DNA of 64,000 nucleotides from Chitinispirillum alkaliphilum. Lineage in GTDB: Bacteria; Fibrobacterota; Chitinivibrionia; Chitinivibrionales; Chitinispirillaceae. The notes beneath the pieces were generated by a model that saw only the letters and a list, made by a program, of their open reading frames with translations, was not told the origin of the DNA and searched no databases. The first letter of the stretch is position 1. Every line of letters begins with the position of its first letter. The translations under genes were made by a program, and so were the position numbers. Shown in pieces: positions 25 through 36,610 of this stretch. The DNA lies in assembly GCA_001045525.1 (NCBI GenBank), contig LDWW01000003.1:186001-250000 (forward strand), written 5' to 3'.

Positions 25-2013
25 CTACTCTAGCTGTTGAATTCTCATTCTGATTAAGGGCGTAAGCGGTGGGGGGACGCTGAAATTCCTCAGCCCAAAA
101 CGCAGGAGCTTTAATAGAAGCCTGCTGTCTCCAGCTGATTCTCCACATAAAACGCAATCCACAGAGCGCTGAGAACATTTCCTTATTACTCTGGCTATCA
201 AAGGCAAACTCAAACTGAGACCCTGTGAATAGTAATTGCTCACCGCATAACTTTCACGGTCTGCTGCAGCAAGATACTGAACCAGATCATTTGTTCCGAT
301 ATTTACGAAATCGCTCTCCCTTAGAATTCTGTTAATATCCAAAACTGCTGCCGGAGTCTCAATCATCGCACCCAACGGGAGTGAATAATTTCCATAACCA
401 AGTTTTTGCTTCTCCTCATTAATTATGTAACGAACCCATTTCATATCATCGGCCACTGTAACCATGGGAACCAGAAGCCGGATATTGAACTGTTTGGAGA
501 GGCGAATGCATGCTCTTATCTGGGAACGAAGGATTTGCTGATGCCGAAACAGAAAACGAATACCCCGCAAACCAAGAAGTGAACAGTACTCCTGGTCCCG
601 GGGCATGTAAGGCAGGGTTTTGTCACCTCCGAAGTCTGCAAGTCTCAGTGTAACAGTTTGATTCTTAACAGGTTTAAGGTGATTGGTTAAGGTGGAGTAG
701 AGCTGCTCTTCAGACGGCAACTCTTTAGCATGCATATAGAGAGGTTCTATTCTGAAAAGACCAATCCCTTCGGATCCAAAACTCAGGGCATCACTAATCT
801 CCCTTTGTGTGGATACATTTGCAAAAACCCCGACGGTTTCATTTCTGAACTTGGTAGGGGTTTTTTGCGCTTTTCTAACCGTCTCAGATTTCCTTGATTC
901 CCTTGCTTTGAACAGATCTGAAAAATGTGACAGTTCTGACTCCGTTGGGTTAATTATTACAGTTCCGGTTTCACCGTCAACTATTACATCACTGTTTTGC
1001 ACTACACCGCTCCCTACAAGGGAGATCTGAGAAATTGAGGGTATCTGCATTGCCCTGGCAAGAAGAGCTGAATGGGAATTGATCCCTCCCTCTTCGGTAA
1101 CTATGGCGTGGGGGCGGCAATGAGTAAAATGTATTGTATCACTGGGCAGTAATCTTTTGGTAACGACTACAGCTCCAGGGGGAAGGGTGGAGAGTACGTT
1201 GTCCTCCATTCCAATCATTTTTTTTAGAATGCGATTGCGGATGTCGGTAAGATCAAACCGTTTTTCTGCAAGTATGTCATTGTCCGATGAAAAAAACTCC
1301 TGCACAAGTTCAGAGAACACGCGGCTAACTACCTGCTCTCCGTTAATTCTCTGATTGATGAGCTCGTTTCGCAACCGGTTAATCAGAGAACAATCGTTCA
1401 ATATCAAAGTGAATACATCAAAGATAGCTGCATGCCTGGAATCTACTTCGGTTTTGACAATATTGCTCAGCCTCTCTATTTCTTCTTTTACACTCCTGAT
1501 AGCGTTTTCGAGGCGCCTGAGCTCGTGAGGGATATCTTTTTCTGAAAGACTCCTTTTTTCCAGCTCCCCACTCAGTATGTCTCTGTAATAATAAACTCTC
1601 CCTATCCCTATACCATCAACAAGAGGTATACCCCGGAAGATAACTCTTTTTTTGCAAATGGAGGAAGAAACCTCCGGTATCGGCTCGGTTGCATCTGATA
1701 TCGGTGAATTTTTGATAAATGGTGAGTATCGGATTGAACTGTTTACATTTTCTATTTGAGACTCGAAATAATCGACAGCCGCAGTTTTTAAACTGACCGG
1801 GCGCCCAAGAAAGGCTGAGAGCTGTTTTTGATGATTCTGTATATCCAGAGCTTCACTGTCTGTTGCGCTTCTCACATCCTGCTGGCTGAGATTTTCGCTG
1901 TGCTCTGAAACACTGTTCTCAATTTTTGAACACAGGTGGCTGTAATTGCTCTTTTCAGAAGAATGGGAATCTGAAAACGGCTTTTTTGCGAATTCCTCTT
2001 TTTCTTTTTTCAT
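25..2013 (-). CDS. PTS enzyme I-like phosphotransferase (paralogue A) with a long N-terminal extension
   Basis: PEP-dependent protein phosphotransferase of the enzyme I/PtsP family; it would autophosphorylate on His from PEP and pass the phosphate to an HPr-type carrier. About 120 N-terminal residues are polar, low-complexity and match no domain I recognise (no GAF domain). The enzyme I N-domain follows, starting near FRGIPLVDGIGIG. The phospho-His loop is GGINSHSALLAR (His about residue 314; usual form GGxTSH). The C-terminal PEP-binding barrel shows GLFRIEPLYM, LADFGGDK, LGLRGIRFL, NIGTNDLVQYLAAADRE and the catalytic CGE. An ATG start is used; a GTG at 2043 would add ten residues and neither has a clear ribosome site. 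It lies back to back with a small gene at 2286. The residues needed for catalysis look present. No HPr or EII gene is in view, so the partner is unknown. Confidence 0.85.
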   Translation of the reverse strand: MKKEKEEFAKKPFSDSHSSEKSNYSHLCSKIENSVSEHSENLSQQDVRSATDSEALDIQNHQKQLSAFLGRPVSLKTAAVDYFESQIENVNSSIRYSPFIKNSPISDATEPIPEVSSSICKKRVIFRGIPLVDGIGIGRVYYYRDILSGELEKRSLSEKDIPHELRRLENAIRSVKEEIERLSNIVKTEVDSRHAAIFDVFTLILNDCSLINRLRNELINQRINGEQVVSRVFSELVQEFFSSDNDILAEKRFDLTDIRNRILKKMIGMEDNVLSTLPPGAVVVTKRLLPSDTIHFTHCRPHAIVTEEGGINSHSALLARAMQIPSISQISLVGSGVVQNSDVIVDGETGTVIINPTESELSHFSDLFKARESRKSETVRKAQKTPTKFRNETVGVFANVSTQREISDALSFGSEGIGLFRIEPLYMHAKELPSEEQLYSTLTNHLKPVKNQTVTLRLADFGGDKTLPYMPRDQEYCSLLGLRGIRFLFRHQQILRSQIRACIRLSKQFNIRLLVPMVTVADDMKWVRYIINEEKQKLGYGNYSLPLGAMIETPAAVLDINRILRESDFVNIGTNDLVQYLAAADRESYAVSNYYSQGLSLSLPLIARVIRKCSQRSVDCVLCGESAGDSRLLLKLLRFGLRNFSVPPPLTPLIRMRIQQLE

Positions 2014-2285
2014 CTGAAGTTCACATAAATGAGTGGTTAACACCGTGTGTTTTAAGGGCTAAAATAAATTCGACTCTGCAATCATAAAATTGTTTTCCGT
2101 CTTTAACAGCCTTATTTGCATGTGTTAGCTGCTGCTGCGTAATATTGCAAAACAATACCCTTTCAACAACAAAAACATTAAAAAATCCTTCACCAGATAT
2201 TTAATCCGTGTGTAACAAAAACCTATATTATTCAAAAACAGATAACCCAAAGCAATAAAACTCAATTTTTTCTGCAGGAGAGAAT

Positions 2286-2641: not shown

Positions 2642-4405
2642 TCAGACACCGTTCTGTTGTTTGGAGAATTTTTCCAGAAGCTCTGTGACTTTGAGATTGG
2701 TTTCGAGTTGCAGTGCTTTTCGGGATAGTTTTTTGAGATCGGAGTAGCGCCAGTTACTTAACGCTTCTTTGACAATTGGGATGGAGTTTGGTTGCATAGA
2801 GAGTGAAGAAATACCCGCACCCACCAGCAATGCCGCACTCATCGCTTCCCCGGCAGCTTCACCACACACCGATACCTCTTTCCCCATCAACATACCAGTT
2901 CTTGCAATGCTGCGTATAAGCCTTAGAATAACCGGATGTACACTCTGGCGATACTCTTCCAGATCACTGTCTTCACGGCTTGCGGCGAATGTATACTGAA
3001 TCAGGTCATTTGTTCCGATATTCACAAAATCAACTTTCGATAAAAATGAATGAATCGAGAGTGCAACAGAAGGAATTTCGACCATAATTCCCACCTTTAC
3101 TATTTCCCTCTCAACTTTCTGCTCTCTGCAGACCTGATTAATTATCTCCAGAGCTTTTTCCAGATCACTGGTAACGGAAATAAATGGAAGAGCGATTTTT
3201 ATCGGAGCAATTTTGCACAGTGGGATTATACTTGAGATATGATCCCGAAAGAGATCTTTGTTTTTTAGCAGATAACGAATTCCTCTGATACCAAGCTGTG
3301 GATTTTCCTCCTCGTAGGACTGCAAAAAGGGGAGAGACTTGTCGGCTCCCAGATCCAAAACACGGATTGTGAGGGGTTTATGATGAATGATACTGCTTAT
3401 TTTTTGGTAAAAATCGGTTTCTTCGTTTATCGTGGGGCGGTGTGCAAAAGACATATAAAAGAGTTCTGAGCGTAACAGCCCTACTCCTTCTGCCCCTAAA
3501 CTCACCGCAGCCTGGGCTTCCTTTACTGAACCGATATTGGCTTCGAGCTTAACCCGTCTGCCATCTTTCGTACGGCACGGTTTTGAAATCTGAGATTGTT
3601 GTAATTTAGGTCTGCTTCGGGAGACGAAATGTTCTCTTTTTTCTTTATAAGAAGAGAGTTCTGCTGCATCCGGATACACTATAACCTTACCGGTGTATCC
3701 ATCCACTATCACCGGGTCTCCGGAGCGAATAAGTGTACCGGCGCCGGGAGTTCGGATAATGGCAGGTATACCCATTGATTTGGAGATGACCGCTACATGA
3801 GAGAGTCTGCTGCCCTCCTCAATTATGATACCCTCTATTTTTTTGAAGTCTAACAGTGCCACATCTGAAGGGAGTAGTTTTTCGGAGACAAACACAACAG
3901 GTTTTTCAATCCGCTGCATGGGGTTTGTTCTTACGTGCTCAATCTCAAGGAGGTTTCTCAAGATGCGCTGATAGGCATCCTGGATATCCATAAATTTTGT
4001 GCGCAGTGCTTCATCGGTAATGGATCTGAATCGGGTTTCCAGTACCCGCATCTGGCTGGCGATTACATGTTCGATGTTCATTTTCTGCGCTGAGAGCAGC
4101 TGCTTGAGCTCTTCGAGAAAAGAGCGGTCCTCCAGGAGCTGGAGCTGGACTTTAAAGATATCATGAATCCCGGAGTTGTCCTTTTCTGAGAGACGCTGAA
4201 AGATTTGAATAAGTTGGTTTCTGCTTTTGGCGATGGCGTAATCAAGCCGGTTGAGTTCTTTTGAGATATCCTCAACCGGAAAGCTGTTCATCTCAAGGGC
4301 ATCAAGAGAGATTGGCTTATATTGAAGAGCATCCGCTATGGCAACACCAGGGGAGATACTCTCGCCATAAAGTTCACGTCTGGTTTTTTCTCGAAATCTG
4401 CTCAT
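2642..4405 (-). CDS. PTS enzyme I-like phosphotransferase (paralogue B)
   Basis: A 587-residue protein with the full enzyme I layout and the usual length of PtsI. The N-terminal swivelling/HPr-binding region covers roughly residues 1-220. The phospho-His loop is altered: EEGSRLSHVAVIS, with His203 kept but the usual GG(R/K)TSH changed to GSRLSH. The C-terminal barrel has GLLRSELFYM, VLDLGADKSLPF (usually DIGGDK), NPQLGIRGIRYL, VEIPSVAL, NIGTNDLIQYTFAASRE and VCGEAAGEA. All main PEP/Mg ligands are recognisable, so activity is plausible, with perhaps a different acceptor. A TAGGAG ribosome site precedes the ATG. Paralogue A lies 600 bp away on the same strand, but a plus-strand gene separates the two, so they are not one operon. 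Confidence 0.87.
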   Translation of the reverse strand: MSRFREKTRRELYGESISPGVAIADALQYKPISLDALEMNSFPVEDISKELNRLDYAIAKSRNQLIQIFQRLSEKDNSGIHDIFKVQLQLLEDRSFLEELKQLLSAQKMNIEHVIASQMRVLETRFRSITDEALRTKFMDIQDAYQRILRNLLEIEHVRTNPMQRIEKPVVFVSEKLLPSDVALLDFKKIEGIIIEEGSRLSHVAVISKSMGIPAIIRTPGAGTLIRSGDPVIVDGYTGKVIVYPDAAELSSYKEKREHFVSRSRPKLQQSQISKPCRTKDGRRVKLEANIGSVKEAQAAVSLGAEGVGLLRSELFYMSFAHRPTINEETDFYQKISSIIHHKPLTIRVLDLGADKSLPFLQSYEEENPQLGIRGIRYLLKNKDLFRDHISSIIPLCKIAPIKIALPFISVTSDLEKALEIINQVCREQKVEREIVKVGIMVEIPSVALSIHSFLSKVDFVNIGTNDLIQYTFAASREDSDLEEYRQSVHPVILRLIRSIARTGMLMGKEVSVCGEAAGEAMSAALLVGAGISSLSMQPNSIPIVKEALSNWRYSDLKKLSRKALQLETNLKVTELLEKFSKQQNGV

Positions 4406-32070: not shown

Positions 32071-32158
32071 CGGAGGGGAGAGGATTCGAACCTCCGGTAG
32101 GGTTGCCCCTACGCAGGTTTAGCAAACCTGTGCCTTAAGCCGACTCGGCCACCCCTCC
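32071..32158 (-). tRNA. tRNA-Ser(GCU)
   Basis: An 88-base class II tRNA. Acceptor stem GGAGGGG/CCCCTCC with G discriminator, D-arm GGCCGAGTCGGCTTAAGGC, anticodon stem-loop CAGGTTTGCTAAACCTG reading GCT (serine AGC/AGU), a long variable arm (GTAGGGGCAACCCTAC) and T-arm GGAGGTTCGAATCCTC. The 3' CCA is not encoded. Confidence 0.97.
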
Positions 32159-32450: not shown

Positions 32451-34859
32451 ATGAACAGTAATAATCTCCGAGAAACCTTCTACAGATATCTACGATACTT
32501 CCTTGCAAAAGATGAATCTACTGCTACTGTGCATGACAAATATATGGCACTCTCCTATGCCGTAAGAAGTGAACTTGTTGATCACTGGATAGAAACCCAG
32601 AAACAGTATAAGCTAAAATCTCCAAGAAGGGTTTATTACCTTTCAATGGAATATATCTTTGGCAAAAGCCTTCAGCAGAATATCATTAACCTTGAGATCA
32701 ACAATCCTATCGAATCAACCATTCAGTCCTTAGGGTTTTCGGTTGATAACCTTTTTAAGCAGGAAGATGATTTTGAATTGGGAAACAACGGAAAAGGCAG
32801 GTCTTCAGCCTGTTTTCTTGAATCTTCTGCTACACTGAATCTTCCTGTAATGGGGTATGGACTACGCTACGATTATGCTCAGTACAGACAGGAGATCATC
32901 AATGGTTCGCAGGTTGAAAAACCCTTTGACTGGCTTCATCGCGGACATCCCTGGGAAATAGTACGGCCAGAATATTCCTGTACCGTTCAGTTTGGGGGGA
33001 GTTGTCACAGAAAAGATGAAGCCCAACCATTAGGGCCCTATGAATGGAATGGCGAAGAACTGGTTCATGCTATACCATATGATATTCCAATAGCGGGATA
33101 CTGCAACAGCACTGTGAACACCCTGAGATTATGGTCTGCCAGAGCTGATGAGGAATTTCTGCCAGATTATTCCAACCATGGTGACTATGTACGTGCTATC
33201 AATGATAAAAACAGATCAGGGCAAATCACTCAGATTCTTTTCCCTGAAGAGGATGTCAGAAGAGCTCATGACATGCGATTAAGACAGCAGTACTTTTTTG
33301 TCAGTGCTGCCCTTCAGGATATTATACGCAGATATAAAATTATCGATGGTGATCTGAGAAAACTTGCTACCAAAATGGCTATTCAGATCAATGGCAGCAG
33401 ATGTGCTCTGGCAATACCGGAATTGATGCGTATTCTGATTGATCAGGAAAATATGCAATGGGAAGAGGCCTGGAATATAACCAAAAAAGTTTTCGCCTAT
33501 ACCAGTAATTCCGTAAACCGTGACTACCTTGAAACCTGGCCGGTGTATAAGATCGCTCAAATACTGCCAAGAATTATGCAGATAATATTTGATATAAACC
33601 AGGTCCATCTTGATGAGGTCAGAGCTAACCGTGGAGACCAAAGTAATCTGCTTAGAGAGCTTTCCCTTATCGAAGAGGGTGAAGTTAAAAAAGTACATTT
33701 TGCAGATCTGGCTGTCACTGGATCTTTTTCAACAAATGGAACCTCCCGGGTTCACACTGATATTCTGACAAGAAAAATTTTCCCCCACTTCTCAGATTAT
33801 TTTCCGGAGCGTTTTAGCTGCAAAACAAATGGTATTGCCCACAGACGTTGGCTTTTGAATGCGAATAAACCACTTTCTAACTTCATAAAGCGACATATTG
33901 GCAAATCATGGATCTATGATTCAGAAAAATTATCAGAACTGGAAAAATTAGCCTCTGATGAAAAGTGTATAGGGGAGCTCGCCCAAATAAAAAGCAGCAA
34001 CAAACGTAAACTTACAGGGAGCATAAAGGAAAAAACAGGCGTAATTTTAGATGATACTATGCTTTTTGATGTTCACGTTAAATCTGTCCATACGGGAAGA
34101 CGACAGGATCTTCATATCCTGCATATTTTGCACAGGTATCTCAGGGCAAAAGCGGGTGAGGAGATCACCACTCCCCGGGCATATGTTTTTGCAGGCAAAG
34201 CTTCGCCTTCAGACTTTCTGGCTAAGCAGATTATTCATCTGATAAACATTACCGCTGAACTTATAAACAATGACCCTCAGGTCAGTGATGTTATGAAAGT
34301 GGTTTTCATACCCGATTTTGGAATGAGCTGGGCAGAGCAGATAGTCCCCGCAACGGATCTTTCTGAACAGATTTCAAGTCCTGAATATGAAGCATCAGGA
34401 ACATTCAATATGAAGTTTGCATTCAATGGGGCAATTACCATTGCAAGCCGAAGTGGATCAAATATCGAACTTCTCGAAAAAATCGGTGAAGATAACCTGT
34501 TTGTCTTCGGAAAGAGTTTTGAAGATATCAAAAACAACCACTACAACAATCCTTCTGATGTATTGAATTCAAACAACAGTCTAAAAGAGGTGTTTTCTTT
34601 TCTTGAAGGACATCTGCCGTCAGTGTCAGGTGGGCATGAGATATATCCGTTAATATCAAATATCTGTGATTCTGACAGACAGTATGTAATTCGGGATTTT
34701 GATGAGTACACTGAAACTCAAAGAAAAATAGATCTTCTTTATCAAAACAAAACTGAATGGTTCCGTAAATCTCTTCTAAATATTGCCAGAGTTGGCTGGT
34801 TTTCAAGTGACAGACTGGTCAGGGAGTATGCCCGGGATGTTTGGAAAGTCTCTGTATGA
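32451..34859 (+). CDS. Glycogen/alpha-glucan phosphorylase homologue with altered active site
   Basis: An 802-residue protein of full GT35 length and order, ending with the normal C-terminal fold (YARDVWKVSV). The PLP lysine is kept (NMKFA, Lys655). Several motifs that are nearly invariant in active phosphorylases differ. The glycine loop GNGGLGR is GNNGKGR (about residues 111-117). NDTHP is NGSRC (about 314). The phosphate/PLP-contact motif KRIHEYKRQ is KSVHTGRRQ (544-552). GSHAVNG is GSFSTNG, and TxDGAN(V)E is SRSGSNIE. Either it has an altered reaction or it is a PLP-binding pseudoenzyme used for regulation. It overlaps the downstream enzyme I-like gene by four bases (ATGA), so the two are translated together. 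No strong ribosome site is visible before the ATG. Confidence 0.85.
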   Translation: MNSNNLRETFYRYLRYFLAKDESTATVHDKYMALSYAVRSELVDHWIETQKQYKLKSPRRVYYLSMEYIFGKSLQQNIINLEINNPIESTIQSLGFSVDNLFKQEDDFELGNNGKGRSSACFLESSATLNLPVMGYGLRYDYAQYRQEIINGSQVEKPFDWLHRGHPWEIVRPEYSCTVQFGGSCHRKDEAQPLGPYEWNGEELVHAIPYDIPIAGYCNSTVNTLRLWSARADEEFLPDYSNHGDYVRAINDKNRSGQITQILFPEEDVRRAHDMRLRQQYFFVSAALQDIIRRYKIIDGDLRKLATKMAIQINGSRCALAIPELMRILIDQENMQWEEAWNITKKVFAYTSNSVNRDYLETWPVYKIAQILPRIMQIIFDINQVHLDEVRANRGDQSNLLRELSLIEEGEVKKVHFADLAVTGSFSTNGTSRVHTDILTRKIFPHFSDYFPERFSCKTNGIAHRRWLLNANKPLSNFIKRHIGKSWIYDSEKLSELEKLASDEKCIGELAQIKSSNKRKLTGSIKEKTGVILDDTMLFDVHVKSVHTGRRQDLHILHILHRYLRAKAGEEITTPRAYVFAGKASPSDFLAKQIIHLINITAELINNDPQVSDVMKVVFIPDFGMSWAEQIVPATDLSEQISSPEYEASGTFNMKFAFNGAITIASRSGSNIELLEKIGEDNLFVFGKSFEDIKNNHYNNPSDVLNSNNSLKEVFSFLEGHLPSVSGGHEIYPLISNICDSDRQYVIRDFDEYTETQRKIDLLYQNKTEWFRKSLLNIARVGWFSSDRLVREYARDVWKVSV

Positions 34860-36610
34860 AAAAAACAAATGAACTAAAGGGTATTTCAGTTGTATCCGGA
34901 TGGGGAATAGGGAAGGCCTACTTTGTAGGACGTGCTGTTCAAAACTCCTCAGCAGTGACCATCTCGCGCCAGGATGTTGGTAACGAGATTATTCGTTTTG
35001 GGGAAATACGGGAAGAAGCAAAGAAAGACTATCGCCAGTTAATTCAAGAACAAAATAATGGGGCCACACTTGATATCTCCATATTAAACATCTATGAACA
35101 TATTCTCGATGACCCTGCGTTTATCGGACAGGTGGTTGAGACCATAACAACCCGTCTTTATGATCTTGAAAGTTCTATAAGACTTGTATCCAACGATTTC
35201 ATCAAAAGGTTTGAGTCTGCAGGAACTTCTTACTTTAGAGAAAGATCGAGCGATATGGTGGAGGTGTGTGAGAAACTGATCTCCTGCATACACCAGGATA
35301 ATGGAAGAGCCCGATCCTTTATTGAGCCGGTTGTGATGGTTGTAATGAGGACATTTACACCTACTGATATCCTCTCCTATGATAAATCTCAGATCCAGGC
35401 CATTATTACCACAAGTGGTGGTAAGACCTCTCATGCGGCTATTCTGGCACGTTCATATTCAATACCGGTGATTTCAGGTATTCGTAATATTGCAAACAGC
35501 ATCCACCCAGGGGATCAGGTTCTTGTGGATGCGGATAAAGCAACTGTATATGTACGGCCAACAGCAGCGGTTACAAGCAAATACAGGCATTTACAAGCAG
35601 ACGATGACAAGATTACCAGACTCAAAACCAAATGGCGAAAACCTGTTTACACAAAAGACGGGGTAAAACTGGAGGTGCTTGCCAATATTTCTCTTCCCGA
35701 TGATATTGACGAAGCTGTTGAGTATGGGGCTGATGGAATCGGACTGGTCAGAACTGAGTATATTCTCTCAAATAGAAAAGAAATGCCTTCTGAAGATGTT
35801 CAGTTGTCCTATTATGAAGAGATATTTAGAAAAAGTAAAGAAAAACCATGTGTTATAAGATTAATGGATATAGGTGGGGATAAAATTCCGCAGTTTTTCG
35901 AAATGCCTCAGGAGTTTAATCCATTTATGGGGTGGAGAGCAATACGTATATTTCTGGATTGTAAAGATATCTTTATCACACAAATCCGAGCAATACTTAA
36001 AGCTGGTAAAGGGCATAATTACTCTATTATGGTACCCATGGTTACTACTTTGCAGGAGTGGCTTGCAGCCAAAAACCTGATCAGGGAAGTCGCCTCAGAA
36101 CTGAATATGGATATGCCTAAATGCGGAATACTTTTCGAAGTACCTCTTTCTATTCTGGAAATGAACACATTTATGAAAGAGATCGATTTCGCTTCAATAG
36201 GTACTAATGACCTTATACAGTATCTCAGCGCCGCAGACAGAAATAATTCAAAAGTAAACTATCTCTATAACCCGATTGAGCCTGCTTTTCTGCGTATTAT
36301 AAGGACCGCCATAAAAACCGCAAATGACAATGGTATGCCTCTTTCAATCTGCGGGGAAATGGCTGGTAACCCCCACCACACGCTTTTACTCATGGGGCTT
36401 GGGTTACGCCGTTTCAGTGTAATACCTCGTAATATACCAATCATTAAAGAGATTATCTCTCAGATCAGTTTGATTGAAGCCGTAGAACATATCTCTCATA
36501 TCGATGCCATTGAAACTACTAAAAACATGGCGAGCTGGCTTACTGCTTCAAATCAGCGTATGCTTGGTGATGCCCTTGACAGATATCCTTCTTTGGAAGA
36601 TATGCTCTGA
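34856..36610 (+). CDS. PTS enzyme I-like phosphotransferase (paralogue C), coupled to the phosphorylase gene
   Basis: A 584-residue enzyme I. This is the most canonical of the three paralogues: phospho-His loop SGGKTSHAAILARSYSIPVIS (His193), GLVRTEY, RLMDIGGDK, NPFMGWRAIRIF, the EVPLSILEMN stretch, ASIGTNDLIQYLSAADR and ICGEMAGNP are all present. The ATG overlaps the stop of the phosphorylase homologue (ATGA), which is the basis for choosing it over a TTG at 34841. It should accept phosphate from PEP and pass it to an HPr-like protein, not encoded here. Coupling to a glycogen phosphorylase homologue suggests a role linking the PEP pool to storage-glucan metabolism. It ends eight bases from the convergent folE. 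Confidence 0.9.
   Translation: MKKTNELKGISVVSGWGIGKAYFVGRAVQNSSAVTISRQDVGNEIIRFGEIREEAKKDYRQLIQEQNNGATLDISILNIYEHILDDPAFIGQVVETITTRLYDLESSIRLVSNDFIKRFESAGTSYFRERSSDMVEVCEKLISCIHQDNGRARSFIEPVVMVVMRTFTPTDILSYDKSQIQAIITTSGGKTSHAAILARSYSIPVISGIRNIANSIHPGDQVLVDADKATVYVRPTAAVTSKYRHLQADDDKITRLKTKWRKPVYTKDGVKLEVLANISLPDDIDEAVEYGADGIGLVRTEYILSNRKEMPSEDVQLSYYEEIFRKSKEKPCVIRLMDIGGDKIPQFFEMPQEFNPFMGWRAIRIFLDCKDIFITQIRAILKAGKGHNYSIMVPMVTTLQEWLAAKNLIREVASELNMDMPKCGILFEVPLSILEMNTFMKEIDFASIGTNDLIQYLSAADRNNSKVNYLYNPIEPAFLRIIRTAIKTANDNGMPLSICGEMAGNPHHTLLLMGLGLRRFSVIPRNIPIIKEIISQISLIEAVEHISHIDAIETTKNMASWLTASNQRMLGDALDRYPSLEDML

Follow-up and report, generated by a model that had tools for sequence, protein, structure and literature searches.

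We describe a paralogue of glycogen phosphorylase with a rewritten active site that is encoded directly upstream of its own enzyme I (EI), the first protein of the phosphoenolpyruvate (PEP)-dependent phosphotransferase system (PTS), throughout an order of bacteria. The two genes lie on the forward strand of a stretch of 64,000 nucleotides from Chitinispirillum alkaliphilum (the window; contig LDWW01000003.1, positions 186,001 to 250,000): gpx (32451–34859) encodes GPX, a protein of 802 residues with the GT35 fold, and the gene that overlaps its end (34856–36610) encodes an intact EI of 584 residues. There is strong support for the rewriting of the active site, from sequence comparisons, and for the conservation of a link between GPX and a PEP-dependent relay; we give a probability of about one half to the reading that GPX is a pseudophosphorylase that acts as a sensor or regulator of a relay like the nitrogen-related PTS (PTSNtr).

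The active site of GPX

GPX covers positions 2–713 of the 713 in PF00343 (831 bits), that is, it is homologous to GT35 across the whole domain; it also matches TIGR02093 (896 bits), and the nearest solved structures by sequence are the human phosphorylases. An earlier reading made from this sequence only had described a protein of 802 residues with GT35 length, a retained pyridoxal phosphate (PLP) lysine and five altered motifs, and we find all of these (rabbit phosphorylase numbering is used throughout): GNNGKGR (32781–32801; residues 132–138, L136K), NGSRC (33390–33404; D339G, H341R, P342C), GSFSTNG in place of GSHAVNG in the alignment with the human phosphorylases (33720–33740) and, by comparison with canonical sequences, KSVHTGRRQ (34080–34106; R569S, E572T, Y573G, K574R) and SRSGSNIE in place of TxDGANVE (34446–34469; T691S, D693S). 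Further changes are found in the 280s gate (EEDVRRA, 33246–33266; D283E, N284D and a new R287), in YTSNSV (33498–33515; H377 to N), in the 610s loop (GKASPSDFLA, 34194–34223; Y613D) and beside the PLP lysine itself (EASGTFNMK, 34389–34415; G677F, with K680 as residue 655 of GPX).

We compared 31 GPX sequences with 23 canonical phosphorylases, counting K680 in the five members of a divergent GPX family (f7) separately. Some changes are clade-wide: D339G, D283E, Y613D and T691S occur in 31/31, and R287 is present in every GPX and in none of the canonical sequences (0/23). Others are nearly fixed, i.e., T378A (30/31), P342C (29/31), L136K (28/30; leucine in 23/23 canonical sequences) and H341R (26/31), and positive charges have become newly fixed at positions 136, 287, 341 and 692. 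Elsewhere in the pocket the residues drift: position 569 may be K, R, P, T, S or N, position 568 is mostly R or G, and N484, H377 and Y573 are retained in only 16, 11 and 11 of the 31 sequences, respectively. The window's GPX retains K568 and N484 and carries R569S, D339G, H377N and Y573G, so the conserved set of phosphate- and glucose-binding residues is incomplete. The loss of R569, to which the sequence-only reading had given prominence, is real in the window (a serine in KSVHTGRRQ); it is not the defining change, as six of the 31 GPX sequences hold arginine there.

Residues that are invariant in canonical phosphorylases are at least 90% conserved in GPX at 9 of 37 active-site positions, vs 91 of 168 positions elsewhere (Fisher p = 0.001; the active-site positions were chosen from general knowledge). 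The ratio of nonsynonymous to synonymous substitution (dN/dS) for gpx is 0.04–0.14 in unsaturated pairs, so GPX is under strong purifying selection; a sequencing error or a pseudogene is ruled out by these values and by the absence of a stop within the frame in any relative. GPX thus combines lost catalytic residues with a gene under purifying selection, as is characteristic of a pseudoenzyme, and is probably catalytically dead or nearly so, although the inactivity itself is something that we infer. Its pocket has been partly re-fixed and is not merely decaying, which suggests a ligand site.

The same pattern could also be produced by an enzyme of changed specificity, with PLP retained and the pocket rebuilt for another substrate or donor. 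This reading accounts for the retention of Lys680 (31/31 outside f7), R309 and R292 (each 31/31), H571 (30/31) and E672 (28/31), as well as for the fixed, non-random new residues K136, E283, G339, C342 and D613; however, the phosphate and glucose binders K568, R569, N484, H377 and Y573 vary freely among members, and three of the five f7 members have arginine in place of the PLP lysine while their link to EI persists. We therefore regard a changed enzyme as quite unlikely. The sequence-only reading had offered a PLP-binding sensor or a modified enzyme: the drift of substrate and phosphate residues from one member to the next makes the second less likely, and the first is plausible for most members without being the whole story, because Lys680 has been lost in those three f7 proteins.

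The AlphaFold2 model of GPX (mean predicted local confidence, pLDDT, 80; predicted template-modelling score, pTM, 0.81) matches phosphorylases over its full length. The top Foldseek match is the complex of E. coli glycogen phosphorylase with HPr (PDB 9s8k, TM 0.92); this does not establish HPr binding by GPX, since all phosphorylase structures score almost equally. The model for the most decayed f7 proteins (pLDDT 50) is too poor for use; all five f7 sequences match PF00343.

Origin of GPX and its linkage to enzyme I

GPX is present in 39 of 40 sampled genomes of the order Chitinispirillales (Fibrobacterota; placement in the order rests on named relatives), and the exception (G014) is 82% complete. 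A search of 110 other Fibrobacterota with a GPX profile recovered canonical phosphorylases, fragments and remote homologues and no GPX; those matches that were placed on the tree fall outside the GPX clade. A wider distribution in the phylum was considered, and GPX was not recovered in the f8–f14 genomes, where the extra matches were fragments or weak matches to remote, probably alpha-glucan-phosphorylase-type proteins. All GPX sequences, including f7, form a single clade (support of 100 in the SH-like approximate likelihood ratio test, SH-aLRT) on a long stem (1.27), from which we conclude that GPX arose once, before the order diversified. The window's own genome also encodes an intact canonical phosphorylase (C7:88694–91108) in which every motif is preserved, so GPX is a paralogue. 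GPX is not an oddity of the window, because it recurs in 39 genomes with substitutions of the same type.

In the window, the stop codon of gpx (TGA, 34857–34859) overlaps the start codon of the EI gene (ATG, 34856–34858) by the four bases that had been reported, giving the sequence ATGA at 34856–34859. The description of the two as "translationally fused" was mistaken: judged from the junction, these are two proteins encoded by overlapping genes, and the arrangement is translational coupling. The same −4 overlap is found in 17 of 33 other loci; four have TAATG, seven lie within an 11-nt overlap or a 4-nt gap, and five have gaps of 24–112 nt, so that the genes overlap or are separated by at most 4 nt in 28/33. 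In all 33 of these loci, that is, those in which the contig extends past gpx, a same-strand EI gene follows directly; with the window and two further genomes assessed by coordinates (G010 and G035), adjacency holds in 36/36 testable cases. The pairing is not due to chance, because both the substitutions and the neighboring EI recur across the 39 genomes. The sequence-only reading had stated that it would fail if the substitutions were unique to one genome and the coupling were not conserved; both are conserved across the order.

The EI in the window is canonical, as had been claimed: all three EI domains are present (PF05524, PF00391 and PF02896; TIGR01417, 446 bits), together with the phospho-acceptor histidine (GGKTSHAAI, codon 35432–35434) and the catalytic cysteine (SICGEMAG, codon 36350–36352). 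The histidine is conserved in 34/34 linked EIs and the cysteine in 28/28 that have sequence at that position. The GPX-linked EIs form one clade (support 100) that is separate from the other EIs tested, and no EI besides the linked one was found in 11 genomes, which are reduced or partial. From one family to another the genes flanking gpx and EI change and the pair itself is kept, and the f7 members retain the EI linkage despite the lysine loss in three of the five.

Most genomes hold both GPX and a canonical phosphorylase, and this raises the chief rival to a regulator of the relay: GPX could be a "prozyme" that forms a heterodimer with the canonical phosphorylase of the same cell and governs glycogen breakdown with EI or HPr. 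Phosphorylases are dimers, and residues fixed in GPX (R33, R36, R/K185, H187, R264, G273 and T276) fall in stretches that we take, from general knowledge of the rabbit enzyme, to be its dimer interface. That the E. coli phosphorylase is controlled by HPr (PMC11046441) is also in its favor. However, gpx adjoins EI and was never seen beside the canonical gene, and no canonical copy was seen in six genomes with GPX, three of which are 95–99% complete (G003, G008 and G016), although gaps in drafts may explain part of this. On balance we consider a prozyme unlikely.

Two further EIs open the window (28–2043 and 2642–4405, both on the reverse strand), and the genome has EI N-domain matches at five other places; in total it has eight such matches vs one HPr.

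The downstream relay and the proposed function of GPX

A search of 41 genomes for the sugar permease PTS_EIIC (PF02378) found it in none, and the controls were positive; the search covered this family and not the mannose-type EIIC. In the window's own genome, the HPr gene adjoins a MlaD-like gene, with a putative ribosome-hibernation factor gene (hpf) and rpoN slightly further away; HPr kinase is restricted to family f3 and a Fibrobacter-type genome (G040). EIIA_2 domains occur in 41/41 genomes, and the cases that we examined are a free PtsN-like protein, a fusion to a Na+/H+ exchanger and a fusion to a diadenylate cyclase. The EI linked to GPX lacks a GAF domain, and a separate, PtsP-like EI with a GAF domain is encoded elsewhere in the genome (L117). 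This predicted gene set points to a regulatory relay of the PTSNtr type with cation antiport and cyclic di-AMP (c-di-AMP) as outputs, rather than to the coupling of storage glucan with the PEP pool that the sequence-only reading had offered as a possibility, and the fusions to the cyclase suggest PTS control of c-di-AMP synthesis. We found no paper that joins a PTS EIIA and c-di-AMP synthesis in the literature searched.

Among individual loci, EIIA_2 is located at the C-terminus of Na+/H+ exchanger-type antiporters in the window's own genome (L107:4072–6252) and in G029 (L112:3764–5827). A single protein in the former (L106:5049–6383, on C7) has an N-terminal EIIA_2 and a diadenylate cyclase (DAC) domain; a relative truncated by a contig end (L108:1–1023) joins EIIA to a DacZ-like sensor domain. 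In G040 the only EI lies side by side with HPr and a MlaD-like gene (L099), whereas in Chitinispirillales HPr stays by the MlaD-like gene and EI is found beside gpx, as though EI had relocated. One genome, G007, has nine HPr matches; most relatives have one or two.

We propose that a glycogen phosphorylase paralogue, born once before the radiation of Chitinispirillales, has been kept as a regulatory protein. GPX would be produced together with its own EI, which would start a purely regulatory relay from PEP to EI to HPr to the EIIA domains; by binding EI, or HPr as the E. coli phosphorylase does, GPX could set the entry of phosphate into the relay and so tune its flow toward the EIIA outputs. 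The trigger would be a ligand in the remodelled pocket, probably an anionic sugar metabolite, with PLP perhaps a structural cofactor; GPX would then serve its EI in trans as the GAF sensor domain serves EINtr (PtsP).

Several points weigh against this proposal. The contact of GPX with EI or HPr, the existence and identity of its ligand, its effect on the relay and the direction of control are inferred, as is its loss of catalysis; Lys680, H571 and E672 are widely retained, so residual or new chemistry is possible; and adjacency of gpx and EI can stem from co-transcription alone. In addition, the mirror-tree correlation of GPX and EI distances (r 0.98), which looked strong vs the canonical phosphorylase, falls on correction with RpoB to 0.53 (p 0.001) with f7 and to 0.11 (p 0.27) without it; we do not rely on co-evolution because this control shows mostly species-tree signal. 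The weak corrected signal outside f7, and the relaxed coupling (gaps of 24–112 nt) in five genomes, would fit an operon of convenience, in which GPX has a separate glucan-binding or storage role, EI is ordinary and inertia maintains the gene order. Such inertia does not readily explain why the pair persists while its flanking genes change between families, or why it remains in the 11 genomes with no other EI found, and we judge an operon of convenience very improbable.

Relation to known systems

GPX shares the full-length fold, the family and, in most members, the PLP lysine with the GT35 enzymes GlgP, MalP and rabbit PYGM; unlike them, it has clade-wide replacements of substrate, phosphate and gate residues and, in some members, no PLP lysine, and an intact phosphorylase is encoded in the same genome. 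Pseudoenzymes that act as regulatory paralogues are known, e.g., the trypanosome prozymes; as in our reading of GPX, selection there maintains a dead paralogue beside a pathway that is still active. The E. coli glycogen phosphorylase is bound and regulated by HPr (PMC11046441; PDB 9s8k), so a phosphorylase fold is likewise tied to the PTS there; in that case HPr regulates an active phosphorylase, whereas in Chitinispirillales the paralogue is apparently dead and its genetic tie is to EI. In PTSNtr (PtsP–PtsO–PtsN), EI senses glutamine and 2-oxoglutarate via its GAF domain, and the system governs potassium homeostasis (PMC13104625). The relay described here resembles it in that no PTS_EIIC was found, HPr is near rpoN and hpf, EIIA is PtsN-like and there is a link to cation homeostasis; it differs in the GPX-linked EI that lacks GAF, in the pseudophosphorylase alongside and in the fusions of EIIA to antiporters and a diadenylate cyclase.

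The ingredients (pseudoenzymes, PTSNtr and the binding of HPr to phosphorylase) are thus known, and their combination appears to be new. In agreement with the sequence-only reading, which knew of no system of this shape, we found neither a GT35 pseudoenzyme nor a phosphorylase–EI module in the open-access papers searched, subscription papers not being covered; a paper on the order (PMC4814513) mentions neither the PTS nor glycogen phosphorylase.

Few enzymes have been studied as much as glycogen phosphorylase, and a pseudo-copy locked to EI across an order would show a metabolic enzyme becoming a signalling part. Taken furthest, and here we are tentative, the phosphorylase may have become a dedicated sensor subunit of EI that gates PEP-driven control of cation antiport and c-di-AMP order-wide, a new type of PTS input; if so, the regulatory PTS would gain a second kind of input besides the GAF domain. 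The GPX–EI pair would also make the little-understood link between phosphorylase and HPr testable in evolution.

Immediately upstream of the pair, a tRNA-Ser gene (GCT; window positions 32071–32158, reverse strand) sits between a DUF4404 gene and gpx.

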